From: a virus
Reading direction: 5' to 3' (one strand)
DNA: 26,848 bases
IMG/VR virus record: IMGVR_UViG_3300034198_007918
Coordinates: 1-26,848 of that record
The stretch's first letter is position 1. Every line of letters begins with the position of its first letter. The position numbers were made by a program, and so were the translations under genes. Shown here in pieces: positions 139-24,400 of this stretch. Under the pieces are notes generated by a model. It did not search any database, was not told the origin of the DNA, and saw only the letters and a program-made list of their open reading frames with translations.

Positions 139-151
139 ATCCCTGCCTGTG

Positions 152-180
152 TTGACGTAAGCGTAACAATGTGGTACACA
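152..180 (+). promoter_or_regulatory. Putative sigma-70-type promoter of the AAA/VWA operon
   Basis: TTGACG at 152-157 is followed after 17 bases by TACACA at 175-180. The -35 element is good and the -10 element is poor, as is common in alphaproteobacterial-type promoters (TTGAC with a loose -10). It lies in the only sizeable gap before the first complete gene, with an inverted repeat at 231-246 between it and the start codon. Inferred from sequence alone. Confidence 0.4.
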
Positions 181-230
181 TTAAATACTGAGTGGGCGGG
201 TGCAACTTTCGCCCATTCGGTCAACCAAGC

Positions 231-246
231 CTTAACCGTGGTTAAG
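231..246. promoter_or_regulatory. Operator-like inverted repeat CTTAAC-N4-GTTAAG
   Basis: CTTAACCGTGGTTAAG is a dyad with 7-base arms around GT. It sits between the putative promoter and the ribosome binding site (GGAGCAAAC at 253-261) of the AAA+ ATPase gene. The same 6+4+6 pattern recurs at 2231-2246 and 7051-7066. The position suits a repressor or activator site; an RNA hairpin near the start codon is the alternative. Confidence 0.45.
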
Positions 247-265
247 CAATTCGGAGCAAACGACT

Positions 266-1333
266 ATGACTACCCTGACATTCGGTTCGACTGTTTCACT
301 CAAGGAAGCAGCGCAGCTTATCATGACCAACCCGCTGGTGCGGTTCCTTGTTCGCGGGGAGCCGGGCATCGGCAAGTCCACCATGCTGTCGATCATCGCA
401 AAGGCCAAGGCATCCACGCACAACGCTGCGTATATGGACGTGCCGAACATGGACCTTGGTGACATCGCCATGCCTGTGGTCGATCACGAAGCGCGGGTGA
501 CGCGCTATTATCCAAACTCACGCTTCCGTCTGCATGAAGGCAAGCCGGTGGTTATCATGCTCGACGAGTTCACCAAGGGTGCCGAGCCTATCAAGAACAT
601 GCTGCATCCGTTGCTTGAGGTGACCAACCCGCGCTTGGGTGACGTGCCTATCGACGAAGAGAGCATCGTGTTCATGACGGGCAACCTGCTGACTGACGGT
701 GTGGGCGACAACATGAAGGCGCATACCCGCAACCGCATCGTGGAGATCGTGGTGCGCAAGCCTGACGCAGACGAGTGGTTGGAGTGGGGTCTCAACAACG
801 ACATCGACGCATCGGTGTTGGCTTGGGTCCGTCAGTTCCCGCATGCGCTGTCGTCCTACACTGATGGGGATAATGACAATCCTTACATCTACAACCCGCG
901 CAAGCAGCAAGCAGCTTACGTTTCGCCCCGCTCGTTGGCCATCGCCTCTAACGTGGTTAAGAAGCGCGACGTGAACGGCAGTGCACCGACTATCTCCGCG
1001 TTGAAGGGTGCCATCGGTGAGGCTGCGGCCCGTGATATGGAAGCGTTCATTGCCTATCAGGACCAGCTTCCATCGTGGGATAGCATCGTAGCGAATCCAC
1101 AGAACGCACTTGTTCCTACGTCAGCAGGTGCATGCGCTGTCATGGTGTTTGGCGCAATCTCCAAGATTGATCGGCAGTCGATGACCCCGTTCATGAAGTA
1201 CATGGAGCGGTTCGATGCAGAGTGGCAGGCGGCGTTCGCCATCAACGTGGCGAAGAACCCGACGAAGCAGTCGGTTGCGTTCTCATGCGCTGCGTTCGCA
1301 GACTGGGTTCAGGCCAACGAAGACCTGCTTTGA
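266..1333 (+). CDS. MoxR-type AAA+ ATPase
   Basis: A 355-residue AAA+ ATPase of the MoxR/CbbQ/CobS type, predicted to couple ATP hydrolysis to remodelling of a partner protein or complex in the cytoplasm. Visible motifs are Walker A GEPGIGKST (residues 31-39), Walker B VVIMLDE (95-101), a sensor-1 segment FMTGN (136-140) and an arginine-finger-like stretch around AHTRNR (152-157). The ATG at 266 is chosen because GGAGCAAAC lies 4 bases upstream, a leader shared by several genes here. The next gene encodes a VWA-domain protein; MoxR ATPases are classically paired with VWA partners, so the two probably form one machine. Related AAA and VWA pairs occur in N4-like and other phages, where their role is poorly understood. 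The substrate cannot be inferred. Confidence 0.88.
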   Translation: MTTLTFGSTVSLKEAAQLIMTNPLVRFLVRGEPGIGKSTMLSIIAKAKASTHNAAYMDVPNMDLGDIAMPVVDHEARVTRYYPNSRFRLHEGKPVVIMLDEFTKGAEPIKNMLHPLLEVTNPRLGDVPIDEESIVFMTGNLLTDGVGDNMKAHTRNRIVEIVVRKPDADEWLEWGLNNDIDASVLAWVRQFPHALSSYTDGDNDNPYIYNPRKQQAAYVSPRSLAIASNVVKKRDVNGSAPTISALKGAIGEAAARDMEAFIAYQDQLPSWDSIVANPQNALVPTSAGACAVMVFGAISKIDRQSMTPFMKYMERFDAEWQAAFAINVAKNPTKQSVAFSCAAFADWVQANEDLL

Positions 1334-1355
1334 TAGCAGGAAGAGGAGCAAACAC

Positions 1356-2576
1356 GTGGAACAAAAAGACAAGGAAGAGCGCAAGCTTAAGAAGGTCAAG
1401 ATCGGCCTAATGCGCAACCCGCAGTTCGCGCTGTGGTCGGGCATCATGATGGTGGGGAAAACAGTCTTAACCGAAGACATCCCGACTGCGGCGACGGATG
1501 GCAGGGACGAGTATTACGGGCGTGAGTTCGTGAAGTCCCTACCAGAGAAGCAGTTGGCCTTCGTCGTGCTGCATGAGAACATGCACAAGGCGCTGCGGCA
1601 TCTGACTACGTGGCGCAAGCTGTACGACGACCAGCCCATGCTGGCTAACATCGCATGCGATCACGTCATCAACATTATGATTATGGAGATGGACCCAAGC
1701 GGCCAGTTCCTTGAGTTCCCGACTGACAAGGAGGGGAAGCGCATCGGTGTGCTGGACCCTCAGTACAAAGGCATGACGGCACGGCAAATCTTCGACCTGC
1801 TCAAGCAGCAGCAGAAGGACAACCCTAACGGTGGTGAAGGCGGCGGCGAAGGCGAACAAGGCTTCGACCAGCACGACTGGGAAGGCGCGAAGAGCCTGTC
1901 CGGTGAGGAGAAGCAGGAACTTGAGCGGGAGATTGACCAAGCCATCCGGCAGGGGATGATCGCTCAACAGAAAGCCATCGGCAACAAAGCGGGCAACATG
2001 CACCGAGAGTTGGGCGACCTGCTCGACCCGCAAGTCGATTGGCGTGACGTGCTGCGTGAGTTCGTCAGTGCCATCTGCTCCAACAAGGACACGTCCTCTT
2101 GGCGTAGGGTTAACCGTCGCTTCATCGGCAGTGACATCTACCTGCCTACCATGATCGGGGAGCGCGTTGGTTCACTGGCTATCGGCGTAGACACATCGGG
2201 TTCAATTAGCGGGCCTGAGATTACGCGGTTCTTAACGGAGGTTAAGGGTATCGCAGAAGGTGTTCACCCTGAGAAGATCGACCTGATCTATTGGGACAGC
2301 GCAGTGGCAGCGCATGAAGTTTACGAGGAGCATGACATGCTCAATCTCGTGAGCAGCACGAAGCCAAAGGGTGGGGGTGGCACCGACCCCCGCGCCATGA
2401 TGAAGTACATGAAGGACAAGCAAATCAAGCCTGAGTGCATCATCATGCTAACTGACGGTGAAATATATGACTGGGGCAATGAGTGGGAAGCCCCGATCAT
2501 GTGGGTAATTTGTAACCGCTATCGTAACAATAGCATCACCGCACCTGTCGGTAAGACGGTGCATATTAAGGAGTAA
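1356..2576 (+). CDS. VWA-domain protein with N-terminal zincin-like domain (DUF2201-like)
   Basis: A 406-residue partner of the preceding AAA+ ATPase. The N-terminal half carries an HExxH zinc-peptidase signature, HENMH at residues 73-77, in a helix context (FVVLHENMHKALRH) as in the DUF2201 N-terminal putative metallopeptidase domain. A Gly/Glu/Gln-rich linker at about 152-172 leads to a C-terminal von Willebrand A domain with a complete MIDAS: DTSGS (279-283), the GGTD threonine (about 341-344) and LTDG (365-368). GTG at 1356 is the start because GGAGCAAAC lies just before it; upstream in-frame codons overlap the ATPase gene and lack a ribosome site. The pairing implies that the ATPase acts on or through this protein. 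Whether the zincin half is catalytically active is unknown. Confidence 0.85.
   Translation: MEQKDKEERKLKKVKIGLMRNPQFALWSGIMMVGKTVLTEDIPTAATDGRDEYYGREFVKSLPEKQLAFVVLHENMHKALRHLTTWRKLYDDQPMLANIACDHVINIMIMEMDPSGQFLEFPTDKEGKRIGVLDPQYKGMTARQIFDLLKQQQKDNPNGGEGGGEGEQGFDQHDWEGAKSLSGEEKQELEREIDQAIRQGMIAQQKAIGNKAGNMHRELGDLLDPQVDWRDVLREFVSAICSNKDTSSWRRVNRRFIGSDIYLPTMIGERVGSLAIGVDTSGSISGPEITRFLTEVKGIAEGVHPEKIDLIYWDSAVAAHEVYEEHDMLNLVSSTKPKGGGGTDPRAMMKYMKDKQIKPECIIMLTDGEIYDWGNEWEAPIMWVICNRYRNNSITAPVGKTVHIKE
2231..2246. repeat. Inverted repeat CTTAAC-GGAG-GTTAAG
   Basis: A perfect 6-base dyad with a 4-base spacer inside the VWA gene, matching the 6+4+6 pattern at 231-246 and 7051-7066. It may be an internal regulatory site or codon-level coincidence. 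Confidence 0.4.
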
Positions 2577-2582
2577 GTTCCA

Positions 2583-3005
2583 ATGCAAGAAGTAGAGAAA
2601 ATCACAGTTCGCAAAGTCCTTCGCATCCTTGATGCTGTGAAGGATCACATCCAGTACGCCGTTGAGTTCGACGGTGTGACTTACGGCAACCGCAAGTTGG
2701 CAGAGGTGAAGGTACACAAGCGCAACGCGCAGTATCCGAAGGGCGCTACCCGTAAGCACTACGTGCCTTACCTTAACCGTGTTAAGGACGGTGGCCTTGT
2801 GAATGTCCCGTTCGGTGGGTTTGACGGCAAGGTACTGTCAGCCAACATAAGCGCATACTGCGTCCATGAGTTCGGTAAGGGCAACGCGACAGTCCACAAG
2901 AATGAGGCAAGCCAGTGCATTGAGGTGTTCGTCACGCCCAAGGTGCAGGTTTCGGCGCTGGAACGCTCGTTGCTTGACCTGTGGGACGACGAGGACGAAG
3001 CTTAA
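2583..3005 (+). CDS. Hypothetical phage protein
   Basis: An unrecognised 140-residue cytoplasmic protein. AAGGAG at 2568-2573 gives a good ribosome site 9 bases before the ATG and overlaps the end of the VWA gene, so the genes are probably translationally coupled. The protein is mixed alpha/beta in appearance, basic in the middle (about residues 38-62) and acidic at the end (DDEDEA). No signal peptide or membrane segment is visible. It lies between the ATPase/VWA pair and a UUCG hairpin. A role as an accessory of the ATPase pair is only a positional guess. Confidence 0.75.
   Translation: MQEVEKITVRKVLRILDAVKDHIQYAVEFDGVTYGNRKLAEVKVHKRNAQYPKGATRKHYVPYLNRVKDGGLVNVPFGGFDGKVLSANISAYCVHEFGKGNATVHKNEASQCIEVFVTPKVQVSALERSLLDLWDDEDEA
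2771..2787. repeat. Inverted repeat CCTTAAC-CGT-GTTAAGG
   Basis: A perfect 7-base dyad with a 3-base spacer, close in sequence to the operator-like site at 231-246 but with one base less between the arms. A degenerate relative, CTTAACCGTGTTAGG, follows at 3024-3038 in the next intergenic gap. Confidence 0.35.
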
Positions 3006-3035
3006 GAGTTACGGGCCGGGCGAGCTTAACCGTGT

Positions 3036-3057
3036 TAGGGCTACTTCGGTAGCCCTA
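3036..3057 (+). terminator. Intergenic stem-loop with UUCG tetraloop
   Basis: A perfect 9-base-pair stem (TAGGGCTAC with GTAGCCCTA) closes a TTCG tetraloop. It lies in the 74-base gap between two genes of the operon. The downstream bases ACACTTTCATC are not a true U-tract, so it is more likely an mRNA processing or stability element, or a weak attenuator, than a full terminator. The next gene still has its own strong ribosome site. Confidence 0.5.
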
Positions 3058-3079
3058 CACTTTCATCAGGAGCAAACAG

Positions 3080-3325
3080 ATGACCAAGGCAATCGTACGC
3101 ATGGGCTACGACACATACGTCGTGGACGCTAAACAAGCGCTGCTTATCCATGAGATATTGGCGGAAGCAGAGTTGTATCACCGCAAGTATCGCAACAGCG
3201 AGGAGGGTGGACCCCTGCATTACATCTACCCGCAGGACGCCACGACTGAAACGAAGTCATTCGAGATCATACCCGAAGGCTTATACCGCATGGCCAAGCT
3301 GGCCGGTAAACCAGACGAAAAATAA
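3080..3325 (+). CDS. Hypothetical small phage protein
   Basis: An 81-residue soluble protein that I do not recognise. GGAGCAAAC at 3069-3077 places the start firmly at ATG 3080. The sequence looks alpha-helical from about residue 15 to 40 (QALLIHEILAEAELYHRKY), followed by an aromatic stretch and a short C-terminal helix. It has no cysteine pairs, membrane segment or known motif. It follows the UUCG hairpin and precedes a DUF3150-like gene, so it belongs to the same operon. Confidence 0.7.
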   Translation: MTKAIVRMGYDTYVVDAKQALLIHEILAEAELYHRKYRNSEEGGPLHYIYPQDATTETKSFEIIPEGLYRMAKLAGKPDEK

Positions 3326-3346
3326 AAAACAAACGGAGCAAACATC

Positions 3347-4201
3347 ATGAGCATAACATCATCATCGGTGCTGGTGGAGATGAACATCAGCGTGTGGACG
3401 GCTAACAAGCTGGACAAAGGCGCTACCGACGCCGTTCTTCTTAGCAATGGGGCTACTGTAGCAGACGCAGCGCAGGTTCGTAAGAACCTGATGGCTGGCA
3501 CGACACTGCGTAAGCAGATCGCAGACTATGCTGCTGGCTGTCGCCTGTGGCACAACACGCGCACGTTGCCGTGGTCAGACAAGGGACCGCGCATCCTGCC
3601 GACCAGTCTGTTCATGGACTACAAGCAGGAGCTAAACATCCGCCGCGATACGTTCCTTGGGATGACCGAAGAGTTCCGCACAAACTACCCAGCCCTTGTG
3701 CAGACAACAGCTAACTATATGGGAAGCTTGCACAATCCAGACGATTACCCGTCTGTCGATGAAGTCATGGGCAAGTTTGGCTTCAAGGTGGTGTTCTCCC
3801 CTGTGCCGGAGTCGGGCGACTTCCGCTTGGACATACCGCAGCAGGAGTTGGATGAGGTGAAGCAGGTATACGACGCTGCTTTCGACACGCGGTTGGCCGA
3901 GGCCATGCGGACACCGTGGGACCAGCTACACAAGATGCTGTCGTCCATGTCCGACAAGCTGACCGAAGGCGACGAAGAGACGAAGCGCCGTTGGCACGAC
4001 ACGTTCCTGACCAATGCACAGGACATGTGCGCCATGCTGACGCACCTTAACATCACCAAGGACCCGAAGCTGGAAGCTGCACGTAGGCAGCTAGAGACAG
4101 CCATGCTTGGCGCTGACATTGATGATATCAAGGAGAACGAAGGCGTCCGTGCTGACCTTAAGGTTAAGCTTGATGCAATCCTCAAGGGGTATGAGTGGTG
4201 A
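3347..4201 (+). CDS. DUF3150-like phage protein
   Basis: A 284-residue soluble, mostly helical protein. GGAGCAAAC at 3335-3343 supports ATG 3347. Its layout resembles, from memory, the phage family DUF3150: a short N-terminal strand with a Trp (about residues 8-18, LVEMNISVWTA), a following segment with a basic helix, and a mid-protein segment ending FGFKVVFSPVP (about 143-154). A charged C-terminal half is probably coiled coil (about 165-280). I could not confirm the family by search. Proteins of this family are seen near phage AAA/VWA pairs, which fits this operon. It could be the adaptor or substrate of the ATPase machine, but that is inference. Confidence 0.65.
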   Translation: MSITSSSVLVEMNISVWTANKLDKGATDAVLLSNGATVADAAQVRKNLMAGTTLRKQIADYAAGCRLWHNTRTLPWSDKGPRILPTSLFMDYKQELNIRRDTFLGMTEEFRTNYPALVQTTANYMGSLHNPDDYPSVDEVMGKFGFKVVFSPVPESGDFRLDIPQQELDEVKQVYDAAFDTRLAEAMRTPWDQLHKMLSSMSDKLTEGDEETKRRWHDTFLTNAQDMCAMLTHLNITKDPKLEAARRQLETAMLGADIDDIKENEGVRADLKVKLDAILKGYEW

Positions 4202-4434
4202 GCAACAAGAACCCGAAGCAAGAGGCACTGCCAGAGTGGGTGGTCGAGTTCGAAATGCACCATGACGACCAAACTTTCAAAGTGGCCAAGGTCTATTACA
4301 CTACAACGATGGACGCACCGCACAAACCCTTCCTGCGCGTCAATGCTATCGACGAGATTGCTGCGTTCAACAAGGCACGGAACATGATGGTGCAGTTGGG
4401 CTTCAACGCCGCACGCGACCCTAACGACGGTTAA
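4198..4434 (+). CDS. Hypothetical small phage protein
   Basis: A 78-residue unrecognised protein whose GTG start at 4198 overlaps the previous stop codon as GTGA, a sign of translational coupling. AAGGGG at 4184-4189 is suitably spaced for this GTG; an alternative GTG lies one codon upstream at 4195. The product appears to be a small alpha/beta domain: strands around residues 14-36 (VVEFEMHHDD and FKVAKVYYTTT), then a helix around 50-66. No catalytic motif, membrane segment or cysteine cluster is visible. Confidence 0.65.
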   Translation: MSNKNPKQEALPEWVVEFEMHHDDQTFKVAKVYYTTTMDAPHKPFLRVNAIDEIAAFNKARNMMVQLGFNAARDPNDG

Positions 4435-4458
4435 GCATATCAGACTAGGAGCAACAGA

Positions 4459-5325
4459 ATGTACGATGACATAAACTTCGATATCACGACACTGGACCTG
4501 CCGAACATCGTCTACGCCCACAAGAAGGGCAATGTGGTGCAGATGGTAAGCCATCCGTTTATACGCCCGCTGCTTATCAAGCTGGCTAAGGCGCGACCCA
4601 AGTGGCGGCTGGTTGGTACAGGCTTTAACACCCGTCCAGAGGAGCCGCACTGGGCACATGCCTTTAGGGTTTTCGAAGGCAACGTGGAACTGGGTATAGT
4701 CAGGAAGGACTATAACTACTCCACCAGTTCTGACTGCTTTAGTATCGACAACCCACGCATGGCTGCCGCACGTCAACGCGGTAGCACGACGCTGACCAAG
4801 GACATGACCAAGGCGTTCAAGATCATCACCAGTAAGTTCTACAGCAAGACGCCCGAAGAAATGCTTAAGGACGCGAAGGAGCGGGCATCGGGGCAGGTGC
4901 AGATGAACGTGCGTAGCCGTGACCACAACTACAGGGGGATCGTCGGCAACCTACGTGACGGGATGCTTGCGTATGCAGAAGCTAACTGGGATGCGTTCGT
5001 AGAGTTCGCCAAGCAGAGTAAGAACGTCGGCACGTTGAACCTCGACAGATATCACGAAGCCAAGGCGGACAACGCGCAAGGTGCTACTCTGGCAGACGCA
5101 TGGAACGCAGGTACGGCGTCCGTCGTCGTGCTGCGTGGCTCCGAGTATATCGTCAACGGCCCTAACGGGGCTAAAATCCTAGCCCATGACGACCTGACCC
5201 CGTGGGAGAAGCGGGCGATAGGCATGCTTAAGCTGGCCGATACAGGAGTGTTCATCCCCCCATTCGGCGTCAAGAGTGGCGAGGGCGAGATGTGCATACT
5301 GCCAGAGATGAAGGAAGATAAATGA
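4459..5325 (+). CDS. Hypothetical phage protein
   Basis: A 288-residue soluble protein of unknown function. A variant of the shared leader (GGAGCAAC at 4448-4455) precedes ATG 4459. The N-terminal half contains alternating strands and loops with many aromatic residues. A Lys-rich helical region spans about residues 111-145. The C-terminal third includes a short beta-rich piece, VVVLRGSEYIVNGPNGAKIL (about 224-243), that looks like a small barrel or edge domain. No nucleotide-binding or nuclease signature is seen. The next gene overlaps its stop as ATGA. Confidence 0.75.
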   Translation: MYDDINFDITTLDLPNIVYAHKKGNVVQMVSHPFIRPLLIKLAKARPKWRLVGTGFNTRPEEPHWAHAFRVFEGNVELGIVRKDYNYSTSSDCFSIDNPRMAAARQRGSTTLTKDMTKAFKIITSKFYSKTPEEMLKDAKERASGQVQMNVRSRDHNYRGIVGNLRDGMLAYAEANWDAFVEFAKQSKNVGTLNLDRYHEAKADNAQGATLADAWNAGTASVVVLRGSEYIVNGPNGAKILAHDDLTPWEKRAIGMLKLADTGVFIPPFGVKSGEGEMCILPEMKEDK

Positions 5326-5606
5326 CTGACCTGCCGATATTGCCCGACTGGGTGCTGATCGAAGCCGCGAAGCGGTTTGAGTGGGACAACGTAGCCACAT
5401 CAGAACTTCGCAGGCATTACCACGATGAAAACTATATCGGCTACCGCGCTCTCTGCGACATGATCGCCAAGCACGAGCAGCCGCCCGTTGATCGCAAGCT
5501 GTTGTGTGCGCGTGAGGCAGTGCGGGAGATGCGGCGCAGGGACGGAGATAACGTGTGTCTTGGCGTCCGCGCCATCGAACTTTGGGAAGAGGGGTTTGGG
5601 AAATGA
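5322..5606 (+). CDS. Hypothetical small phage protein
   Basis: A 94-residue soluble protein that starts within the previous stop (ATGA at 5322-5325) and is therefore coupled to it. The sequence is helical, with Trp and Tyr in the first half and a basic stretch LCAREAVREMRRRDGD (about residues 61-76). It has no recognised domain, membrane segment or metal-binding pattern. It is the first of three small genes joined by ATGA overlaps that end the operon. Confidence 0.65.
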   Translation: MTDLPILPDWVLIEAAKRFEWDNVATSELRRHYHDENYIGYRALCDMIAKHEQPPVDRKLLCAREAVREMRRRDGDNVCLGVRAIELWEEGFGK

Positions 5607-5839
5607 CTGACGATTTCAAAGAGCGGCTGCGGAACACCGACCATAACTGGCACGCGGCGGCTTGTGCGGAAGCTGAACACCGCATCGAAGCCCAAGCGGC
5701 AGAGATTGAGATGCTACGTGGGCATTTGGAAATATGGATATTCCACAATCAGCGGGCGATGGGGCAGAAGTCTGAAGATGCCCGCGCCTATGCCAAGGCT
5801 TGGCTTTTCCGCAATGCAAACGGGGAGGAACCGGAATGA
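5603..5839 (+). CDS. Hypothetical small coiled-coil protein
   Basis: A 78-residue protein starting at ATG 5603, which overlaps the preceding stop as ATGA; this coupling decides the start over the earlier in-frame ATG at 5555. Residues about 18-45 form a likely amphipathic helix or short coiled coil (AEAEHRIEAQAAEIEMLRGH). The rest is helical with several aromatic residues. No function can be assigned. Confidence 0.6.
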   Translation: MTDDFKERLRNTDHNWHAAACAEAEHRIEAQAAEIEMLRGHLEIWIFHNQRAMGQKSEDARAYAKAWLFRNANGEEPE

Positions 5840-6009
5840 CCGAACAACCGAAACGATACAGGGGCCAGCGCGGCCCTAACAAGGTGAAGAAGGAGTCCAT
5901 GGTAGCGGTCTCCATACGCCTACCAAAGCATGTGGTAGACTATTACAAGAGGTGCACACCCCTGATGCGGGCTGCGCTGATTGAGTTCATGCAGAACAAC
6001 CCAGACTAA
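5836..6009 (+). CDS. Ribbon-helix-helix DNA-binding protein
   Basis: A 57-residue basic protein starting at ATG 5836, which overlaps the previous stop as ATGA. After a basic arm (KRYRGQRGPNKVKKE, residues 6-20) comes a beta strand VAVSIRLP (23-30), then two helices (31-39 and 42-53), the layout of Arc/CopG/BrnA-type ribbon-helix-helix proteins. Such proteins bind palindromic operators as dimers through the paired strands and often act as repressors or antitoxins. It is the last gene before a strong terminator. It is the obvious candidate to bind the CTTAAC-N4-GTTAAG sites, including one in front of its own operon. No toxin partner is evident. Confidence 0.65.
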   Translation: MTEQPKRYRGQRGPNKVKKESMVAVSIRLPKHVVDYYKRCTPLMRAALIEFMQNNPD

Positions 6010-6030
6010 CCACCGTTATGCTCCAACCTT

Positions 6031-6070
6031 AGGGGGGTCAGCTTTATGCTGGCTCCCCTTTTTTTGTTTT
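6031..6070 (+). terminator. Rho-independent terminator ending the AAA/VWA operon
   Basis: A 12-base-pair stem (6031-6042 with 6048-6059, including two G-U pairs) has a TTTAT loop and is followed by seven T, a G and four more T. It lies just after the ribbon-helix-helix gene. The -35 element of the next promoter overlaps its tail. Confidence 0.9.
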
Positions 6071-6120: not shown

Positions 6121-6420
6121 ATGGCTAAAACGCCTGAGAAGATCGTAAAAGATAAAGTCGTGTCGGTATTGAAAGCCGAAGGCGTATATTACTTCTTTCC
6201 CGCTACGCATGGCTTTGGCCGCAGCGGCGTTCCCGACATCGTATGCTGCGTTAGCGGCAAGTTCCTTGCCATCGAGTGCAAGGCTGGGAAGAACAAACCC
6301 ACAGCCCTTCAAATCCGCGAAATCGAAGCTATCCGTAGCTGCGACGGCGTAGCTGTCGTCGTGGACGAAACCAACTGGGACATGGTGCGCGATATGGTCA
6401 AGCGCCTTAAAGCTGCGTGA
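6121..6420 (+). CDS. VRR-NUC domain nuclease
   Basis: A 99-residue stand-alone VRR-NUC protein, a PD-(D/E)XK-fold nuclease found in many phage replication modules and thought to act on branched or replicating DNA. The catalytic pattern is VPD at residues 37-39, then IECKAG with Glu52 and Lys54, and Gln64 after the active site. The ATG at 6121 is preferred because it follows GGGGCAGACT, the same leader seen before the gene at 13715; the earlier ATG at 6082 lies inside the promoter. It is the first gene after the promoter and lies directly before the DNA polymerase. The length fits minimal phage VRR-NUC proteins. Confidence 0.85.
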   Translation: MAKTPEKIVKDKVVSVLKAEGVYYFFPATHGFGRSGVPDIVCCVSGKFLAIECKAGKNKPTALQIREIEAIRSCDGVAVVVDETNWDMVRDMVKRLKAA

Positions 6421-6454: not shown

Positions 6455-8275
6455 ATGAACGTCATCACAATCGACTTCGAAACCTACTACGACCAGCAGT
6501 ACAGCCTGTCGAAAATCACGACCGAAGAGTATGTGCGCGACGAGAGCTTTGAGGCTATCGGCGTATCTGTACAGGTGGATGCCGGTGAGCCTCAGTGGTT
6601 CAGCGGAACCAAGGCGCAGACGCAGCGGTGGCTGGACCAGTTCGATTGGGATAACGCAGTAGCTGTAGCCCACAACGCTATGTTCGACATGGCCATCCTT
6701 AACTGGCAGTTCGACATCCGACCCAAGCGCATCGCTGATACACTGTCCATGGCCCGTGCACTGCATGGCAACGAGACGGGGGTTAGCTTGAAGGCGCTGG
6801 CCGAGTTCTACGCGCTGGGCGAAAAGGGCAATGAGGTGGTGAACGCACTGGGCAAGCGCCGTCTCGACTTCACGGCTGATGACCTTGCCCGCTACGGTGA
6901 GTATTGCCGTAACGACGTTAAGCTTACCTACGCGCTTTTCGAAGCCATGCTGCCTATGTTCCCGTTGGTTGAACTTAAGCTGGTGGACCTGACCATCCGC
7001 ATGTTCACGGAACCGATGCTGGAACTGGATAAGGCCACGCTTGAGAGCCACTTAACCAAGGTTAAGCAGAAGAAGGCGGACCTGATGTCGGCTGTTGAGG
7101 CCGATAAGGACATCCTGATGTCCAACCCGAAGCTTGCCAACCTTCTCTTACAGTTGGGCGTTAGCCCACCGATGAAAATCAGTACGGCGACGGGCAAGAA
7201 AACATGGGCATTCGGTAAGACAGACGAGGGCTTCAAGGCACTGCTCGACCACTGGGACCCACGGGTACAAGCCGTAGTCGCCGCACGTATGGGCGTTAAG
7301 TCTACGCTGGAAGAGACAAGGACAGAGCGGTTCATCAAGATCGCTGAACGCGGAACGCTGCCTATCCCCTTGCGCTACTATGCAGCCCACACTGGGCGTT
7401 GGGGTGGTGACGATAAGGTGAACATGCAGAACCTGCCGCGCAAGTCACCGCTTAAGAAGGCAGTGCTGGCACCAGAGGGCTATACCTTTATCGACTGTGA
7501 CAGCAGCCAGATCGAAGCGCGGACCTTGGCGTGGCTGGCTGGGCAGCAAGACCTTGTGGATGCGTTCGACCGTGGGGAAGACGTTTATAAGATCATGGCG
7601 TCCGCTATCTACGGTGTGCCTATCGAAGACGTGACGGACGACCAGCGGTTCGTGGGTAAGACCACCATCCTTGGCTGTGGCTACGGTATGGGTGCCGCTA
7701 AGTTTCAGGCGCAGCTTAAGGCGATGGGCGTTGCGCTGGAGATGGACGAGTGTGAGACCATCATCCGCATCTACCGGCAGACCTACCCCAAGATACCTGA
7801 ACTGTGGAAGGAAGCACAAAGGGCGATCATGGCTATGATCGGACAGGCTACGGCACCGCTGGGTAAGGAGGGTGCAGTCGTGGTTAACATGATGGGTATA
7901 CGTCTACCTAACGGGCTATACCTAAGATACAATAACCTCCGGGCTTGGGAGAACCCCGACACCATGAAGCTGGAATACGTCTACGACCAGAAGAAGGGTC
8001 GTGCGACGATGAAGAACCGCATCTACGGTGGGAAGCTAATCGAGAATGTCTGTCAGGCGTTGGCCCGCATCGTGATCGGTGAGCAGATGCTGCTGGTAGC
8101 AAAGAAGCTGCGGGTGGTGATGACCGTGCATGATGCCGTTGGTGCGCTGGTACCCACGGAGCAAGCTGATGAAGGACGTGCGTATGTTGAGCAGTGCATG
8201 CGCAAGCGCCCCACGTGGGCACCTGAACTGCCGTTAAACTGTGAAAGCAAGATGGGAGCAAGCTATGGTGGATGA
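6455..8275 (+). CDS. Family A DNA polymerase with 3'-5' exonuclease
   Basis: A 606-residue replicative polymerase of the Pol I family, lacking a 5' nuclease domain. The DEDDy proofreading domain shows DFE (residues 7-9), AHNAMFD (Asn74, Asp78) and YCRND (Tyr150, Asp154). The polymerase domain shows TGRW...NLP (313-328), motif A DSSQIEAR with Asp349 and Glu354, motif B R398-x3-K402-x7-Y410-G, and motif C HDA (559-561). Four residues after the O-helix Lys is Leu406, the position of E. coli Phe762. AGAGG at 6444-6448 supports ATG 6455. Neighbouring genes supply the nuclease, helicase and primase functions expected for phage genome replication. Confidence 0.95.
   Translation: MNVITIDFETYYDQQYSLSKITTEEYVRDESFEAIGVSVQVDAGEPQWFSGTKAQTQRWLDQFDWDNAVAVAHNAMFDMAILNWQFDIRPKRIADTLSMARALHGNETGVSLKALAEFYALGEKGNEVVNALGKRRLDFTADDLARYGEYCRNDVKLTYALFEAMLPMFPLVELKLVDLTIRMFTEPMLELDKATLESHLTKVKQKKADLMSAVEADKDILMSNPKLANLLLQLGVSPPMKISTATGKKTWAFGKTDEGFKALLDHWDPRVQAVVAARMGVKSTLEETRTERFIKIAERGTLPIPLRYYAAHTGRWGGDDKVNMQNLPRKSPLKKAVLAPEGYTFIDCDSSQIEARTLAWLAGQQDLVDAFDRGEDVYKIMASAIYGVPIEDVTDDQRFVGKTTILGCGYGMGAAKFQAQLKAMGVALEMDECETIIRIYRQTYPKIPELWKEAQRAIMAMIGQATAPLGKEGAVVVNMMGIRLPNGLYLRYNNLRAWENPDTMKLEYVYDQKKGRATMKNRIYGGKLIENVCQALARIVIGEQMLLVAKKLRVVMTVHDAVGALVPTEQADEGRAYVEQCMRKRPTWAPELPLNCESKMGASYGG
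7051..7066. repeat. Inverted repeat CTTAAC-CAAG-GTTAAG
   Basis: A perfect dyad with 7-base arms around AA, inside the DNA polymerase gene. It is the third exact instance of the CTTAAC-N4-GTTAAG pattern in the window. Confidence 0.4.
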
Positions 8276-8801
8276 ACCACACGCAGTAGTGAAGCTACTG
8301 GTCGCACGGATGGAGAGCCATCCAGAAGAGTTTAAGCGTGAAAGTCCTGATTACCACCACCGTTGGTATTCGACCGTTAGCGACATAACCGAGTACGGGA
8401 ACGAGGCCGACAAGGCTGCAATCGACGCAAAGCTGCGCGACATCCGGCTGGGCGAAGCCCACGAAGATATGATGGACGAACTGCTCAACGGCCCTGATCG
8501 TCGCCGCAAGCAGGCGGAAGACGCTGAGTACGAGCGTAACCTGATTATGCAGCAAGCAAGGGCGCAGCGGAACACATCCATTCAGCAGCAAGCAGCGCAG
8601 TCTTATGCACAGCAATATCAGAACGCCGCAGGCACATTCACGCCCGGACTTCGCGGTAAGTCTATTACTGGCACTTGGATAGATGAGGCTTACGGCACCC
8701 TTACCACCATGGGCACCACTACCAACGCAAACGCCCTGCAACTGGGCAGCGAGAAGCTGGATGAGGGCATCCTCAAGAAACTGAAAGGACTACTGAAATG
8801 A
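8265..8801 (+). CDS. Hypothetical phage protein
   Basis: A 178-residue soluble protein. The start is set at ATG 8265 because it follows GGGAGCAAGCT, a form of the leader used elsewhere; this overlaps the last codons of the polymerase gene. Residues about 55-110 are strongly charged and helical (KLRDIRLGEAHEDMMDELL, then RRRKQAEDAEYERN), followed by a Gln/Ala-rich stretch (110-130) and a Thr-rich segment near the C-terminus. No known domain is visible. Its stop overlaps the next start as ATGA. Confidence 0.7.
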   Translation: MVDEPHAVVKLLVARMESHPEEFKRESPDYHHRWYSTVSDITEYGNEADKAAIDAKLRDIRLGEAHEDMMDELLNGPDRRRKQAEDAEYERNLIMQQARAQRNTSIQQQAAQSYAQQYQNAAGTFTPGLRGKSITGTWIDEAYGTLTTMGTTTNANALQLGSEKLDEGILKKLKGLLK

Positions 8802-9436
8802 GCGAGTACCAATTCACCAAAGACTGGTTCCAGTGGGCACCGGAGGTCTGGAAGCAGCTTATCCCGCTGTTGCCGGAGCGTAAGGCTTTCCTTGAAATAG
8901 GTTCCTTTGAAGGCCGCAGCACAGTCTGGATTGCTGAGAATATGGTAGGACCTGAGGATTGGGGCGAAATCCACTGCATCGACACGTGGGAAGGCGGCGA
9001 AGAGCATAAGGAGTCTGGTGAGGACATGGACAGCGTGGAAGCGCGGTTCGATCACAACATTGCATTGCTCCAAACCAAGCAGGATGTAGGGGTGTCGGGG
9101 AAGACAATCCCCAAAAATAACATCCATAAGCACAAGGGCACCTCAGCCCAGCACCTCGCTCACTGGCTGGTGGAAGACCCGAAGGACCACCCGACCTTTG
9201 ACTTTATCTACATCGACGGGAGCCACAAGGCACCGGACGTTCTGACTGATGCTTGCATGGCATGGCCGCTGCTCAAGGTCGAAGGGCTTATGGTATTCGA
9301 CGATTACACATGGGGCAACCCGCGTGACGCACTGCACCGGCCCAAGATCGCAATCGACGCCTTCACCAACATCTTCGGTGAGACGGCAGAGATTATCCAC
9401 GTTGGTTATCAACTCGTAGTAAGGAAGAAGGGGTAA
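8798..9436 (+). CDS. Class I SAM-dependent methyltransferase
   Basis: A 212-residue Rossmann-fold methyltransferase of the Methyltransf_24-like type. Motif I is FLEIGSFEGRST (residues 31-42), which binds S-adenosylmethionine. HCIDTWEG (59-66) follows strand 2, and FDFIYIDGSHKAPDV (134-148) together with GLMVFDDYTWG (163-173) forms the metal- or substrate-binding part typical of sugar and small-molecule O-methyltransferases. It lacks the (D/N)PPY motif of adenine-N6 or cytosine-N4 DNA methylases. The start overlaps the previous stop as ATGA. A glycosyltransferase lies about 500 bases downstream, so the pair may modify a glycan or a modified nucleobase; the target is unknown. Confidence 0.85.
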   Translation: MSEYQFTKDWFQWAPEVWKQLIPLLPERKAFLEIGSFEGRSTVWIAENMVGPEDWGEIHCIDTWEGGEEHKESGEDMDSVEARFDHNIALLQTKQDVGVSGKTIPKNNIHKHKGTSAQHLAHWLVEDPKDHPTFDFIYIDGSHKAPDVLTDACMAWPLLKVEGLMVFDDYTWGNPRDALHRPKIAIDAFTNIFGETAEIIHVGYQLVVRKKG

Positions 9437-11812: not shown

Positions 11813-12105
11813 TGCCCATGAAGGTCCGCAATTATCGCCGCGAGTACGAGACGTACCAAGGCAGTGAGCAGCAGAAGAAGAACCGCGCTGCCCGCAACGC
11901 TGCCCGCGCCAAGATGATGAAGGCCGGTAAGGTCCACAAGGGTGACGGGAAAGACGTAGCCCACGTGAAAGCCTTCGATAAGGGCGGCAGCAACAAGACT
12001 GGGCTTAAGGTAGAAAGCGCATCGACAAACCGCTCGTTCAAGCGTGATGCCAAGAGGAACCTTGTTTCCGAAACGAGCAATCGGGAACGTAAAAGGAAGA
12101 AGTAA
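11812..12105 (+). CDS. Very basic HNH-like small protein
   Basis: A 97-residue, highly basic protein starting at ATG 11812, which overlaps the nuclease stop as TAATG; AGGAGG at 11801-11806 is a strong ribosome site, and ATG 11818 is a possible alternative. Residues 47-74 (KDVAHVKAFDKGGSNKTGLK, then VESASTNRSF) match, from memory, a phage family with a reduced HNH pattern: D-x-x-H, GG-x-N, and a final Asn. Here the residue before the His is Ala where relatives often have Asp, so catalysis is doubtful. The Lys/Arg-rich tail suggests DNA binding. Confidence 0.65.
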   Translation: MPMKVRNYRREYETYQGSEQQKKNRAARNAARAKMMKAGKVHKGDGKDVAHVKAFDKGGSNKTGLKVESASTNRSFKRDAKRNLVSETSNRERKRKK

Positions 12106-15061: not shown

Positions 15062-15292
15062 GTGACACAGGGCTACAGCCTACGCCTTCGTGACCTGAAC
15101 CGGAGGGCACCCAGCAAGTTGTTGGGTGTCCGCCTCGGGCGCGTCTGCATCAAGCATGATATCCCTGCTTCGATTGTCGCGGGTAGGATGGGTGTGTCTC
15201 GGCAAGCAGTGTACAACTGGTTCCGTGGCACATCCAACCCCAACCAAAGCCTGACTGGCGTAATCGAGCAGTTCATCTCCTCCTTAAGCTAA
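15062..15292 (+). CDS. Cro/CI-type helix-turn-helix protein
   Basis: A 76-residue DNA-binding protein. Residues 34-57 (IPASIVAGRMGVSRQAVYNW and FRG) form a clear helix-turn-helix of the lambda-repressor-like class. The C-terminus is a short helix, and there is no protease or dimerisation domain. GTG 15062 is preceded by AAGGA at 15050-15054 with 7-base spacing, overlapping the SSB-like stop. Small Cro-like proteins directly before a primase gene are known in other phages and may regulate replication-gene expression or help bind the origin. The operator is unknown. Confidence 0.78.
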   Translation: MTQGYSLRLRDLNRRAPSKLLGVRLGRVCIKHDIPASIVAGRMGVSRQAVYNWFRGTSNPNQSLTGVIEQFISSLS

Positions 15293-18444: not shown

Positions 18445-18481
18445 TGGCCCCCCAGTCTGCACCACTGGGGGGTCATTTTTT
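18445..18481 (+). terminator. Rho-independent terminator between convergent gene blocks
   Basis: A 12-base-pair stem (TGGCCCCCCAGT at 18445-18456 with ACTGGGGGGTCA at 18464-18475, one G-U pair) with a 7-base loop is followed by six T. It ends rightward transcription of the replication module. The T-run reaches the TAA stop (18480-18482) of the opposing giant gene. Only the rightward direction has a U-tract. Confidence 0.9.
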
Positions 18482-21400
18482 ATTTGGGCCGGAACTGTTC
18501 CGCCATGCTCACGTCCCGCTGCGCAGTCTTCTTGGTCACCTGCATACCCTGCACGGTATTGGCACGGGCTGTGGCACGCCCCTTAAGCGAACGTTCGATG
18601 GTATCCATCGTGATTGCCAGCGACGGATCGGGATACGTCCGGTTGAAGGGTATGATCTCTTCCGCGATGTAGTTATCGAAGTCCGCACGGTCCTTAATGT
18701 CGCCGTCGCGGATGCCCTTCTCCAGCCCGTCAAGAATTTTGCGCTTCTCGCTCTCGATAGCCTTCTCGTTCTTGGCACGGGTAATGTAATAGTCCTGCCA
18801 CCGTGCAAGGTCCATCGGACGGAACCCAAGCAGCGAACGAGCGGAGTCGAAGCCGTCGATATCTTCCTTCGGGATGATGACGTTACCCTTGCTGTCCTTC
18901 ACACCTTCATGTGCTGCCTGTGCGGTAGCTACCCACGAACGGAAGAATGCAGGGAGCATCTTCTTCAGGCCGTTCTCGATGTTGCCTTCCGTGAAGTCGT
19001 CCCAGCCGTTCAAAATCTGCACGGCCATCTGCCCACCTGCGATGTTAGCGATGGCGAACTTGATGGCGCTCATCGCCGTGCTGTCTTCCGCAGCCGTCTC
19101 GCGGAACCACATGTTCTTCAGGTCGAGCGAGGTGCGACTGGCTACGTCCGTATTGGTAATCGCACTGACCGGCCCATGGATAAGCATATCAGCAAGCGTA
19201 ACGCCGCTGTTCTTGTCCTCTGGGTTGTTCATCTTGTCCATGATCCACTTACGGAACATGGTGTCGCTGTCGTAGGCCATGCGCGGGTCAAGCTGCATGA
19301 GACGCTTTACGTCCTCATCATCCTCATCGTCGAAGCCTTCGGCCAGTGCCCACGCCATCAAGGAGTAGAGTGGCATGCCTGTCAGACCGCCGAACATGCC
19401 AGCCATCATCAGCACGCCGGTCAGTTCCTTCATGGCACCGACACGATCACCACCTGTACCACGCACAATGGCATTGAAGCTCTGCACGAAGAACTTGGTC
19501 TGGATAATAGCGTACATCTTGAACAGGAAGAGTGCCCGGGTGACATTACCCTTGGCCAGACGCGGGCGTTCAAAGCTGCTGAAGTCGCCCATCGTGTCGC
19601 GGATCATGGACGTGCCTTCTTCAAGCGCATGCTCGAAAGCTTCGTCTTCTGTAGCCTGTGGGTTCTTCGCCTTGAAGTCGTCGTATGCCAGTTCAAACGT
19701 CATGAAGAAGCTGACCTGCCGCGAGATGTTTTCCATCCCGTTGAACATGACGCCCATGACCTTGGCCGTTTCGGTTGCAACATCGGCGGCTGCGCCAGCT
19801 ACACCACGGCTTTCCTTACGAGCCACTTCCCGCTCGTTCTGCACAAGGGTGTCCGACACGGTCTGCAACAGGTTGCGTTCCGATGCTGCCTTCGCTGCCT
19901 TCTGTAGAAGCGCGGCTTTCGGCCCCTTCTTAAGGAAGTCCGAACCAAGCACGCTGGGCATGAGAGCATGCAACTGGTCACCCATGCCGGTCTTGATCTT
20001 CTCGGTCTTGGCGATGCCGATGCTCTTGTACACGTTCATGTACTTAACCCACATGGCGGTGCCCTTGGCATAGCCATACTGACGCCAAAGGCGCGGAACC
20101 ACGCGGATAGGGATCGAAGTGGGCTGCACAAGGGCCGTGGCTGCGGACGTCAGGTAGTAGAAGAACGACATCCGGTTAAGGAAGTTGACGACTGCACCCT
20201 GCGGCTCTGGGTTGATCTCCTGCTCTGTGCGCTCTTTAATCTCGTCGATTACGTCACGCAGCTTGCTCTGCCGATCATTCGGACGGTCCTTGATGTTTTC
20301 GTACGCACCCTTGATCTCGCCACGGATGCGGCCCGCATAGGCCATCTTCGAAAGCTGGTTAGCGTAAGCCGTCACCTGACGGGAGAACTGGTTCAGGACA
20401 TCCGGCGAGAAGCCGGTCACTTCTTCCGCGTGCATCATGCGCCGACGCGCCGACCGCTCAGGCGTGGTCATCAACCATGTCTGGTAGATAGCGTCACTGA
20501 TGTCCTTAAACTCGATGCTACCCCCTGCATCGCTTGTCGCTTTTGCCTTGTTAACGATTTCGAACACCTTCTGCATCAAGGCATCTTCGTTCTTAAAATC
20601 TTCTTGTAGGGAAGCGATGTTGTTACCAAACGTGAGTTCGCTCTGGTCGTTGGGGTCCACACCCAACTCTTTAGCTACCGCCAGCTTTGCACGGTTGAGT
20701 TCCTTGGCATTCTCAAAGGTGTAGAGCCTGCGTTCGCGCTTACCCTTCTTAGCCTTTACGTACAGCCAGTACTGCCCATCACGCATAAAGGGGAAGTAGT
20801 CCTTCTGGAACAGGTCTGCGGGCACGTCCCAGAAGACGTCGCCCTTTTTCTTGGCTTCGGCTGGGTCCAGCGTCTCACGCATGAGGTCTGCACGGACGTC
20901 GCGCAGGCGCTTTGCCTGCTCCTTGTCTGCTACCTGCTCAATACGCGCATCAAGGAGTGCCAACTCAGCTTCGAACATGTCCTTATAGAACTGGCGGGTG
21001 TCCTTATAGAGCTTCTGTCCGCCCTTCTGTTCACCAAGCTTGTCCCATGCAGCATGCACGTCGCGGATGCGCCGGGTCATTTCCGTAAGCTGCTTAACCT
21101 GATCGGTCGTTAGCTTTACGTCGATAGCCACCTTATCAAGCTCAGTGATAAGCTTGCGGACTTCCGGCGTGAGCTTAGTCGGCCCCTCTTCAACCCGTGT
21201 CTGCGACTTACCTGCAAGGGTGAGGGCTTTCAGTTCGTCGATGATCTGACGGGCACGCTTCTTGTCGTTCGAGTTGGTAAGGATGCGGTCTTCGACCAGC
21301 GTGATTACGCCGTGCTTTTTAAGAGCTTCCTCCATCGAAGCGAACTCGTCGGGGGAGTACTCGTTAATACGGCTGATCGACTGTGCAGCAGCAAGGGTGT

Positions 21401-24400
21401 TGCTACCGTATGTATCGACAAAGGCTTTGATCCGCTGCGCGATGTCGTCACCGGCAGCGATGATGTTCGCCTTCATGTTCGTCATCTTGTTGACGAGTTT
21501 ATCCACCTCTTTGAGTGCCGTCGTCTCACCGCTGAACCAGTCAAGGATGCCAGATGTGGGCAGTGAGATGAGGGTAGCCTTGAACACCGAAGGGTTCATG
21601 TTCGCTAAGTTTTCTTTGATGCCAGCGAGATAGGGCTTGGCAGTATGCCCACGGATCGCATCACCCATACCTTGCGCCATGCCGTACACACTCTGGCTGG
21701 CCGTGGTGCGACGCAAGCCGTCACTAACGTCGCCGGTAGCCATGAAGAGGTCTTCTTTGGTCTGCTCCGTGGTGTCCATCTTGGCGTTCTTCGGCTTCTT
21801 ACGGCTGAAGATATAGCGGACGCCTTTCACAGCACTGCTCGTTGCATCGCCCTTGGTTACGAGACGGTGGGCAGCAGAGAGGATTGCGTTCACGTCGCCA
21901 TCAGACAGGTTCAGATCGAAGCCAAGCCGACGAGCAAAGTCGCGGACAACGGCAGTGAGCCGCTGCATAATCGACTGGGGAACGATGCCAGCTTCAGACT
22001 GTTCGGCCAGTACTTCTTCTACAGCACGTACAATGCGGCTGTCGCCCGGATAGGCGTCAGGGTTTTCCTTCATCCACTTGTCAGTGGCTACACGGATGTT
22101 CTTGTTGCCGTAGTAGAGCGATTTCAGCACGTCATCGAGACGTTCGCGGAACAGCTTCTCAAGCCCGATATGGCCAAGCCCTTCATGGAACAGGGTCGCA
22201 CGGGCGTCCTCTTTCGACATCAGGTTGCTGGCAATCAGGTAGACGGTGCCGTCTGTATCGACGAGACCCTTGGCGTCCGTGGCCCCATCCGCTTCGACTA
22301 CTGCTCGCAGAGCCGACGGTAGCTGGTCAGTTGTGGATACTACCGTAACAGGAACACCACTCTTCCATCCGGATACGATGTCGTTAACAATACGCTGGAC
22401 GGCAGCGGGCGACATACCCGCGCCTTCGCCGCGCTTGTACTTCTGCACCTTGGTCTCACGCTCGTCGATCCGGGCTTCGCGGAGTTCGGCTTTAGCCTCG
22501 TTCTTACCTGTCTCAGCGACGCGTAGCTTATCATTAGCAGCGCGCATGCTTTCTTGGGCGGCGCGAAGGCGCTTAGTAGTTTTACGGACTTGTGCTTTTG
22601 CGGACTCGACCCGTGCATATTGGCGGCGAACGTCAGGCAGAAGAGCATTAGCTCCTTCTCCACCGGATATGACGTACTCTTCTTGTGCCGCAGCAAGCTC
22701 GGTATTAGCTTCGTCAAACGAAGCTTTGGCAGCGTCCAGTTCAGTCTTGGCGTTTTGCGCCACTACCACTGCTTGTGCTATTTGTGGCCGTGCTTCTATC
22801 CTACCCAGCTCTTCCTTGGCTTCCTGCTGGCGCACCCTTGCACCCAACCGCTCATCGACACGGGTTTCCACCATGGTCTTCATGCGGGCACGAAGGGGAT
22901 TGAGCAGGCCGTTCTGCACAGCAGCCGTTAGCTGCTGGTTGATCTCACCGATCTTGGCGGTCGCCGCTTCGCGCTGCTGGTCATCCTGTGCAGCACGGAA
23001 CTCTTCCATGGCCTTGTTAACTTCGGCTTCACGGCGGGCAATCGTGTCGTTTGGCTTTGTCTGCCCATTAGGCAGCACTCGGTAGGCGTTCGGGCGTTCC
23101 AGACGGGACAGGAGTTCAGCACGCTGGCTATTGTCGATCTGCCCTGCCTGATGCAGTGTGTCCACTTCGCTGGTGAACTGGCGGATCATGTCCGTCGCAA
23201 CCGTAGGTTCGGTGGTGTCTACTTCTTCTACCGTCTGTGCGCTCAGTTCGGATGGTGGCACGAACGGCGTAAGCTCCATCATCTGGCCGTAGACCTGATC
23301 GGAGAACTCTTGCAGCGTCGGTGCGGACAGCACGACTTCAGGCTTCTTACCAAGCTGGGTTTCAGCTACCAGCTTATACGGGTTCTTCTTATCTTTCGGG
23401 GTATAATCGACCTTGTAGACGGCATTCTCTGGAGCCTGCGCACGCAGTGCGAACTCGATATCACCCAACGTTTCAACGCGGTTCTCTTCGTCAAGCTTAG
23501 TACGCTGTGCGATCTGTGTAGCTGCCGCTGCACCAGCTTCTTCCTGCTGTGCGATGCGCTCTTCTGGTGTGGTGTTCAGCTTAAGCTGCTGGAGTTCTTC
23601 CGCCTTATCGAGACGGTTCTGCTCTTGCGTAGGTAGCGCACCAAACAGACCTTCATCGGCAGTCGTCTTGGACGGACGACCACGGGAGTACCTAATGGGA
23701 GGGCCAGTGTAAGTGCCTTCCTTAATGGCATCCAGCACATAGGGATCGCCACCAGATGCTTCGAAGTCGCTTAGCCGTACAGGGTCATTCAGGATATCGG
23801 CTGCGCGCTGGGGTCCAACTTCCGTGGGCTGGGGGGTATATTTCTTAGGGGCAACCGGTGCAGTGGGGGCAGCTTCTCCGCCCACTACGAGAGCATCCAG
23901 CGCCTCTTGATTGCGAAGGTTTGCTTCTTCAGCACCGACATCCCGCTGTTCCGTTTGCTGTGCAAGCAGTGGCTCAATTGTAGCACTTTCTTTTCCGACG
24001 AACTGCGAAAACGCGGGCATGCGTTCCGGGGAGATAACACCCTCGATACCAGTGGTCTTCATAGCACCAACATAACGGCGCGCTATGCTCTCAACGAGCG
24101 GGGCCGGGGCTGGCTGCCCCTTTGCGGCAAATGCTGTGTATTCGTCTATCTGAGCGTTCAAATCCGGTGCGCGACGTGCAGTGGGAGCGGCGGCAGGAGC
24201 GGCGGCCTGACCCCTAGCAAGGGCATCCAGTTCTTCTTGGTTGCGAAGGTTGGCTTCTTCCTCGCTGATACCGGCAGCGGCTTCCCGCTCCATGCGAGTG
24301 GGTTCCTTGCGGAATACCCCCGGTGCTTCACCTGCGGTAAATTGCTCTTCTTCGATAGGCGCAGCTTCGCCACGCGCCATGGCTTCCGCATCACGCTCAG

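Follow-up and report, generated by a model that had tools for sequence, protein, structure and literature searches.

The virus record IMGVR_UViG_3300034198_007918, analyzed over its whole 26,848 nucleotides (hereafter the window, a 26.8 kb fragment), carries ten co-directional open reading frames (ORFs) in its first 6 kb. Do these ten genes form one system and, if not, which of them belong together and what could they do? An earlier note, made from the letters of this DNA, had placed ten genes here, and our ORF calls agree; it had also read them as a single system with fixed borders. What we found is a single regulated early block whose core consists of three genes, encoding a MoxR-family ATPase, a zincin-VWA protein and a DUF3150-like protein. 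In the explanation that we favor, to which we give about an even chance, this linked co-directional triad, together with a conserved promoter and palindromes of the early block, would be a three-component AAA+ machine of the phage early region, likely acting on a host or DNA-maintenance target.

The MoxR and Zincin-VWA Pair and Its Third Partner

The three core genes are the following.

266-1333, + strand: gene 1, MoxR-family AAA+ ATPase, relative of N4 gp24 (PHROG 1297, 1.3e-43; alignment of relatives)
1356-2576, + strand: gene 2, zincin-VWA protein, relative of N4 gp25, GTG start (Pfam)
3347-4201, + strand: gene 5, protein remotely related to the DUF3150 family, the triad's third member (PF11348 matches of its relatives, cyanophage match, linkage)

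The earlier identification of the first two genes as a MoxR/VWA pair was borne out by family matches and invariant motifs. Gene 1 has the Walker A motif GEPGIGKS and its best solved relative is midasin (3e-8); residues G31, G34, G36, K37 and S38, D100 and E101, N140 and R157 were invariant in the alignment of relatives, and the score against Pfam AAA/AAA_5 fell slightly under the cut-off. Gene 2 matched two Pfam models above cut-off, the putative metallopeptidase domain DUF2201_N (PF13203, 3e-25) and the VWA-like domain DUF2201 (PF09967, 5e-17). Among ten relatives, the HExxH motif (H73, E74, H77) and the MIDAS residues (D279-x-S281-x-S283, T343, D367) were invariant. Gene 2 is thus of the DUF2201 zincin-VWA type by its domains, with a predicted peptidase activity. 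The MoxR family was present in 259 phage records and the zincin-VWA family in 772. The latter is called “HNH endonuclease” by PHROG 1314, a label carried by many RefSeq phage records, which obscures the family in databases.

The proteins lying between the pair and the last gene had been considered unassignable. This no longer applies to gene 5, which matched the DUF3150 protein of Synechococcus phage MinM2 in a single-sequence comparison (3e-21) and whose relatives matched PF11348 (DUF3150) in 6 of 10 cases (best 5.2e-6). With an iterated gene-5 profile, the DUF3150 proteins of plasmid pMTS2 and of MinM2 scored 7e-74 and 7e-78, both having belonged to the set used for iterating the profile. 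We thus describe gene 5 as a remote relative of DUF3150 by sequence and not as a certified Pfam member. Profile search confirmed relatives of gene 5 in at least 584 viral-contig stretches and also in 11 bacterial or archaeal contigs. The predicted structure is mostly helical and of moderate quality (pLDDT 75.8); Foldseek returned no match in the PDB at E<=0.001, the N-terminal half being barely probed, and a second structural comparison gave generic helical bundles (Z<=11). The word “DUF3150” was found in no paper of the literature that we searched.

Linkage and Spread of the Triad

Once near-duplicates had been removed, linkage could be counted over 33 distinct loci, each flanked on both sides by 4.5 kb or more. 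The MoxR, VWA and DUF3150 genes were together on one strand in all 33, in the order MoxR-VWA-DUF3150 in 27 loci, MoxR-DUF3150-VWA in 4 and DUF3150-MoxR-VWA in 2. Besides relatives of this phage, the carriers included a cyanophage, plasmids of Burkholderiales and contigs of bacterial chromosomes (L106 and L108). The order MoxR-DUF3150-VWA was found in the cyanophage, Synechococcus phage MinM2 (OQ594354.1, L017), and on conjugative plasmids of Cupriavidus and Simplicispira. Two further cyanophages, Pag-Yong1 and Pra-JY27, have the triad as well. The varied orders, together with the findings on plasmids and chromosome contigs, speak for a linkage that has been maintained and not merely inherited. 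As a separate observation, cobS and VWA genes are also known from plasmid-type mobile elements such as pAQU1.

Recurrence of the Other Genes

Recurrence was counted over the 72 relatives whose downstream sequence extended for 4 kb or more.

2583-3005, + strand: gene 3, accessory ORF (4/72 relatives; no phage match)
3080-3325, + strand: gene 4, found between VWA and DUF3150 in some relatives (30/72)
4195-4434, + strand: gene 6, accessory ORF (1/72)
4459-5325, + strand: gene 7, lineage-conserved protein (61/72)
5322-5606, + strand: gene 8, accessory ORF, ATGA-coupled (1/72)
5603-5839, + strand: gene 9, accessory ORF, ATGA-coupled (1/72)
5836-6009, + strand: small protein similar to ribbon-helix-helix (RHH) proteins and BrnA antitoxins, with a basic N-terminus (48/72)

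Gene 4, gene 7 and the RHH-like gene recurred in order, only in this phage lineage. The idea that the small genes would recur in order around the pair is thus upheld for the DUF3150 gene, by which the set of relatives is itself defined, for gene 7 and the RHH-like gene and in part for gene 4; it does not extend to genes 3, 6, 8 and 9, for which the claim of ten genes in one system fails because they recur in only 1 to 4 of the 72 relatives. Gene 7 and the RHH-like gene were undetected in the cyanophage triad, no RHH gene was found with the plasmid triads, and among bacterial or archaeal contigs gene 7 was present in only two (L101 and L102). These two genes therefore look like lineage-specific early genes and not like parts of the triad. 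In these comparisons, only the MoxR-VWA-DUF3150 triad moves between unrelated elements.

The AlphaFold model of gene 7 was confident (pLDDT 93.6) and had no PDB match; its structural relatives were phage proteins of unknown function only, and no consistent PHROG assignment emerged when 38 members were scanned. The last gene had been read as an RHH regulator. The window protein alone matched the BrnA antitoxin model PF14384 weakly (E 0.22), and the reading is carried by 6 of 24 homologues that matched this RHH model (best 3.3e-7); no convincing sequence relative was found in the PDB.

Most of the ten ORFs are preceded by sequences resembling ribosome-binding sites. Stop and start codons overlap as ATGA at 5322, 5603 and 5836, and two ORFs share 7 nt at 4195/4201. 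We also observed that GGAGCAAA occurs just 5' of several gene starts (253, 1345, 3069, 3335 and 10723; 5 observed against 0.6 expected), and we read it as an extended ribosome-binding or start-associated motif.

Promoter, Terminator and Borders of the Block

1-138, + strand: C-terminal end of a conserved gene lying directly upstream of MoxR in relatives (upstream-gene profile, 3.5e-11)
152-180, + strand: promoter TTGACG-17 nt-TACACA (comparison with relatives)
6031-6065, + strand: intrinsic terminator, a 12-pair stem followed by a T-run (-23.6 kcal/mol)

A promoter and a strong terminator of its own had been attributed to the block, and both were recovered. A plain promoter scan from 139 to the MoxR start found nothing; the promoter emerged from comparison, its pattern being conserved at the same position 5' of MoxR in 44 of 75 loci, the window included, against 1.9% in shuffles. 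The terminator at 6031-6065 was the sole + strand match in the first 7.5 kb. As a universal border it was rejected, terminator-like matches after the RHH gene being found in only 14 of 69 relatives, about half of them distant, against 3-8% in controls.

The borders are fixed only in part. The strong terminator stands in the window and is missing from most relatives, and the 5' border does not hold, bases 1-138 belonging to another gene of the block. This conserved gene immediately preceded MoxR in 38 of 61 loci. In relatives the block starts several kb further upstream, and in one of them (L002) its upstream end is closely followed by the gene for the large terminase, on the opposite strand. 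We read the first 6 kb of the window as the distal portion of an early region of the phage, its upstream portion lying beyond the window, a reading that shares the even chance given to the explanation as a whole. We infer the word early from position and host-type promoters.

Palindromes Dispersed Through the Early Block

The block is further marked by short dispersed palindromes, which have in the window the form CTTAAC-N3/4-GTTAAG.

231-246: palindrome CTTAACC-GT-GGTTAAG, between the promoter and the MoxR start (comparison with relatives)
2231-2246: palindrome CTTAAC-GGAG-GTTAAG (12/12 match)
2772-2786: palindrome CTTAAC-CGT-GTTAAG (12/12)
3025-3039: palindrome (11/12)
4420-4435: palindrome (11/12)
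6908-6922: palindrome (11/12)
7051-7066: palindrome CTTAACC-AA-GGTTAAG, the last good site of the window (12/12)

At a threshold of at least 11/12 there were seven sites, against 0.15 in order-2 shuffles, all within the first 7.1 kb and none in the remaining 19.7 kb. Most relatives likewise have phage-specific palindromes throughout their early block. A perfect palindrome lay 5' of MoxR in 52 of 75 loci, against 4% in the null. The form CTAACA-N0-3-TGTTAG was present in 40 copies 5' of MoxR and in 342 at other places of the loci, which total about 1 Mb, the number expected from base composition being estimated at well under one. Across loci, 332 sites lay before the start of the family A DNA polymerase gene (PolA), in 340.6 kb, versus 3 after it, in 106.7 kb; in relatives, the palindrome block thus stops where PolA begins. 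In whole contigs, all sites fell inside 9.4 kb of 66.5 kb (13/13, G002), 9.6 kb of 52 kb (13/13, G003) and 9.1 kb of 63.6 kb (9/9, G015).

Other phages had other half-sites: TTAGTG, TTAGGG, CTGATA, CGTGGC and GGGTAC, and GGTTCAG in cyanophages. Of the cyanophages, Pra-JY27 and MinM2 were seen to have palindromes; in MinM2, GTTCAG-N-CTGAAC occurs 21 times in 65 kb, most densely near the MoxR-DUF3150-VWA genes. Of 94 sites in six relatives, 51 were at gene junctions and 43 within genes. Several of the junction sites overlap a start or a stop codon. In one relative (L003), for example, a palindrome at 7989 lies on the VWA start codon and another at 11826 on the RHH stop codon, so that stop and start signals can be covered by a single motif.

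An RNA hairpin was also considered. The gap of 0-2 nt in most phages is too short for a loop without opening pairs, and a DNA site is therefore preferred; where the gap is 3-4 nt, a hairpin is still conceivable. The palindromes are probably operator or “stoperator” sites, a putative function. Stoperators of mycobacteriophage L5 and the repeated elements of SPbeta are many short operator-like copies dispersed through phage genes; those described here differ in that they are perfect palindromes, that in the CTAACA contigs checked they keep to the early block, and that their half-site varies from phage to phage. We found no description of palindromes of this kind in the literature searched.

Two DNA-binding proteins were tried as readers of the palindromes, and neither was supported. 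One was the RHH-like protein, whose strands KLVAIR, AHVNLR, VYLPVR and LFCTSLR all occurred with the half-site CTAACA, and HVSLR with CGTGGC. The other was a small Cro-like protein, present in 15 of 16 related contigs. Its recognition helix, mostly V[ST]RQTVYNWF, hardly changes between phages with the half-sites CTAACA, CTTAAC and TTAGTGA.

15062-15292: Cro-like HTH_3 small protein

Other Genes of the Window

6121-6420, + strand: Hjc/VRR-type nuclease resembling Holliday-junction resolvases, first gene past the block (PF01870 above cut-off; PHROG 93, 5.6e-17; 64/72 relatives)
6455-8275, + strand: family A DNA polymerase, PolA (PHROG 17, 1.8e-99; 60/72 relatives)
8798-9436: methyltransferase-domain protein, between the polymerase and exonuclease genes (Methyltransf_24, 1.5e-21)
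18480-25640, - strand: giant protein of 2386 aa (DarB-like antirestriction match, 1.3e-28)

PolA is followed by methyltransferase-like, exonuclease, helicase and primase-like genes. As to a membership of Schitoviridae, the 2386-aa protein of this 26.8 kb fragment matched DarB-like proteins and not vRNAP.

Discussion

Comparison With Known Systems

The two-gene core is known from N4, where gp24 (“unknown”) and gp25 (“vWFA domain”) are middle genes and core genes of N4-like phages (PMC4193335). Our pair resembles them in the succession of MoxR and zincin-VWA, in lying in a non-structural region and in homology over 80-96% of the length; it differs by an identity of 23-30%, by the other gene set around the phage's pair and by the DUF3150 gene, undetectable in the Schitoviridae CB1 and EE36phi1. 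No account of what N4 gp24/gp25 do turned up in the literature searched. The same pairing and domains, including the N-terminal metallopeptidase, exist in group 2.2 jumbo phages, for which a role in virion assembly was proposed (PMC7824862), whereas here the pair lies in an early region with DUF3150. The earlier remark that the role of MoxR/VWA in phages is not settled was thus correct, gp24/gp25 being core genes with no assigned function in PMC4193335 and virion assembly being a proposal in PMC7824862. Since the pair is known from N4 and jumbo phages, and no DUF3150 partner was detectable in seven tested phages, the triad is a variant of the known MoxR/zincin-VWA pair.

The Burkholderiales plasmid cluster, exemplified by Cupriavidus pMTS2, shares co-directional MoxR, DUF3150 and VWA genes; it differs by the order MoxR-DUF3150-VWA and by its position near a PRTRC cassette, and neither an RHH gene nor dispersed palindromes were detected in it or in the other plasmid triads. 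Ternary MoxR-vWA conflict systems also combine the pair with a third conserved component, of the VMAP, iSTAND, FtsH or beta-propeller type (PMC7159879). Here the third component is DUF3150-like, the vWA protein has a zincin domain, the genes are borne by phages and plasmids, and no effector repertoire was seen. None of those four domain types was found in the ten ORFs by PHROG and Pfam scans, and we do not class the locus with these systems. In RavA-ViaA and NorQ-NorD a MoxR ATPase is likewise partnered with a VWA protein (PMC9976466, PMC10585395). These two differ in having host metabolic targets. Neither is known to have a zincin domain or a DUF3150 partner.

A Possible Mechanism and Its Alternatives

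By analogy with the chaperones NorQ/NorD and RavA/ViaA (PMC9976466, PMC13036017, PMC10585395), the triad could be an ATP-driven remodelling machine. The MoxR hexamer would spend ATP on remodelling a target protein complex, which the VWA domain would grip through its MIDAS metal site and the zincin domain might clip where exposed. The helical DUF3150 protein would be a target-specific adaptor or scaffold. A phage-encoded dimer binding the dispersed palindromes would damp early transcription. The presence of the triad on conjugative plasmids and its position beside replication genes make a host or DNA-maintenance complex a more likely target than a part of the virion.

Several observations weigh against this explanation. 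Because loci entered the sample through their resemblance to gene 5 (3347-4201), it is biased toward relatives of this phage. The DUF3150 assignment of gene 5 rests on its relatives: gene 5 itself had no reported PF11348 match at E<=1, and its relatives with printed scores fell under the curated Pfam cut-off of 24.9 bits, as did a plasmid protein named DUF3150 by NCBI (22.1 bits). No DUF3150 gene was detectable in seven phages bearing the pair (the two Schitoviridae, Bacillus phage G, Vequintavirus EdH4, Rhizobium phage TM29, Serratia phage BF and Thermus phage phiFa), so that the pair can act without it. Palindromes were few or absent at about a quarter of the loci of larger relatives, and the recognition elements of the RHH-like and Cro-like proteins do not co-vary with the half-site, so that neither can be named as the reader. 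Finally, the pair of Serratia phage BF is located among structural genes, which fits virion assembly.

Virion assembly, in which MoxR-VWA would be a chaperone that remodels or processes structural proteins, is the published proposal for group 2.2 jumbo phages, with a precedent in the tail of the archaeal virus ATV (PMC7824862), and roseophage RPP1 has extra virion proteins near its gp24/25 homologues (PMC4193335). We nevertheless consider it rather unlikely for this locus: the triad lies here in an early block beside replication genes, and it is also carried by conjugative plasmids and chromosome contigs, plasmids making no virion. The carriage by both phages and plasmids, which meet the same defences, would suit another function, the dismantling, soon after infection, of a complex that serves the host in defence or regulation, with genes 3, 6, 8 and 9 as counter-defence cargo. 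Such a host takeover, on which the earlier note had speculated, would agree with the early position, the strong conserved promoter and the fast turnover of accessory genes between relatives; it remains a minority possibility, none of the ten proteins having matched PADLOC-DB (2023 library of defence systems, E<=0.01) and DUF3150 being conserved and not fast-evolving.

About the target, one may also think of replication or recombination complexes, which the triad would remodel as an accessory of DNA maintenance. The Hjc-like nuclease, PolA, exonuclease and helicase genes come next in this lineage, the pair adjoins DNA polymerase I in Rhizobium phage TM29, and the triad is near PRTRC genes on the Cupriavidus plasmid. 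However, the terminator, the palindrome boundary and other genes separate it from PolA, and no replication gene is adjacent in Bacillus phage G or Serratia phage BF, and we consider this alternative possible and clearly short of probable. As for one dedicated system of ten proteins, the continuous co-directional operon with its ATGA couplings and terminator, and the ordered recurrence of gene 7 and the RHH gene, speak for it; the rarity of genes 3, 6, 8 and 9 and the distribution of gene 7 and the RHH gene outside this lineage, described above, make it very improbable.

Going beyond the three-component machine that we favor, we would tentatively entertain a broader possibility: a widespread triad of mobile elements that would, early in infection or plasmid entry, remodel or cleave a host complex, for example a defence assembly, and a palindrome array that would control the whole early block in this lineage as a new kind of operator, phage-specific in sequence and kept in its layout, including sites within genes, by a phage-encoded reader.

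The DUF3150 partner and the block-marking palindromes are of most interest here; neither is described in the literature searched, whereas the two-gene core is known from N4. That relatives of gp24/gp25 are accompanied by a third partner, in phages as on plasmids and chromosome contigs, argues against a purely virion-assembly role. For N4 gp24/gp25, a core phage pair, the third partner gives a defined set of three proteins for reconstitution. The block-confined palindromes mark the borders of an early regulon in sequence and offer a short DNA probe, CTTAACCGTGGTTAAG, for its regulator.

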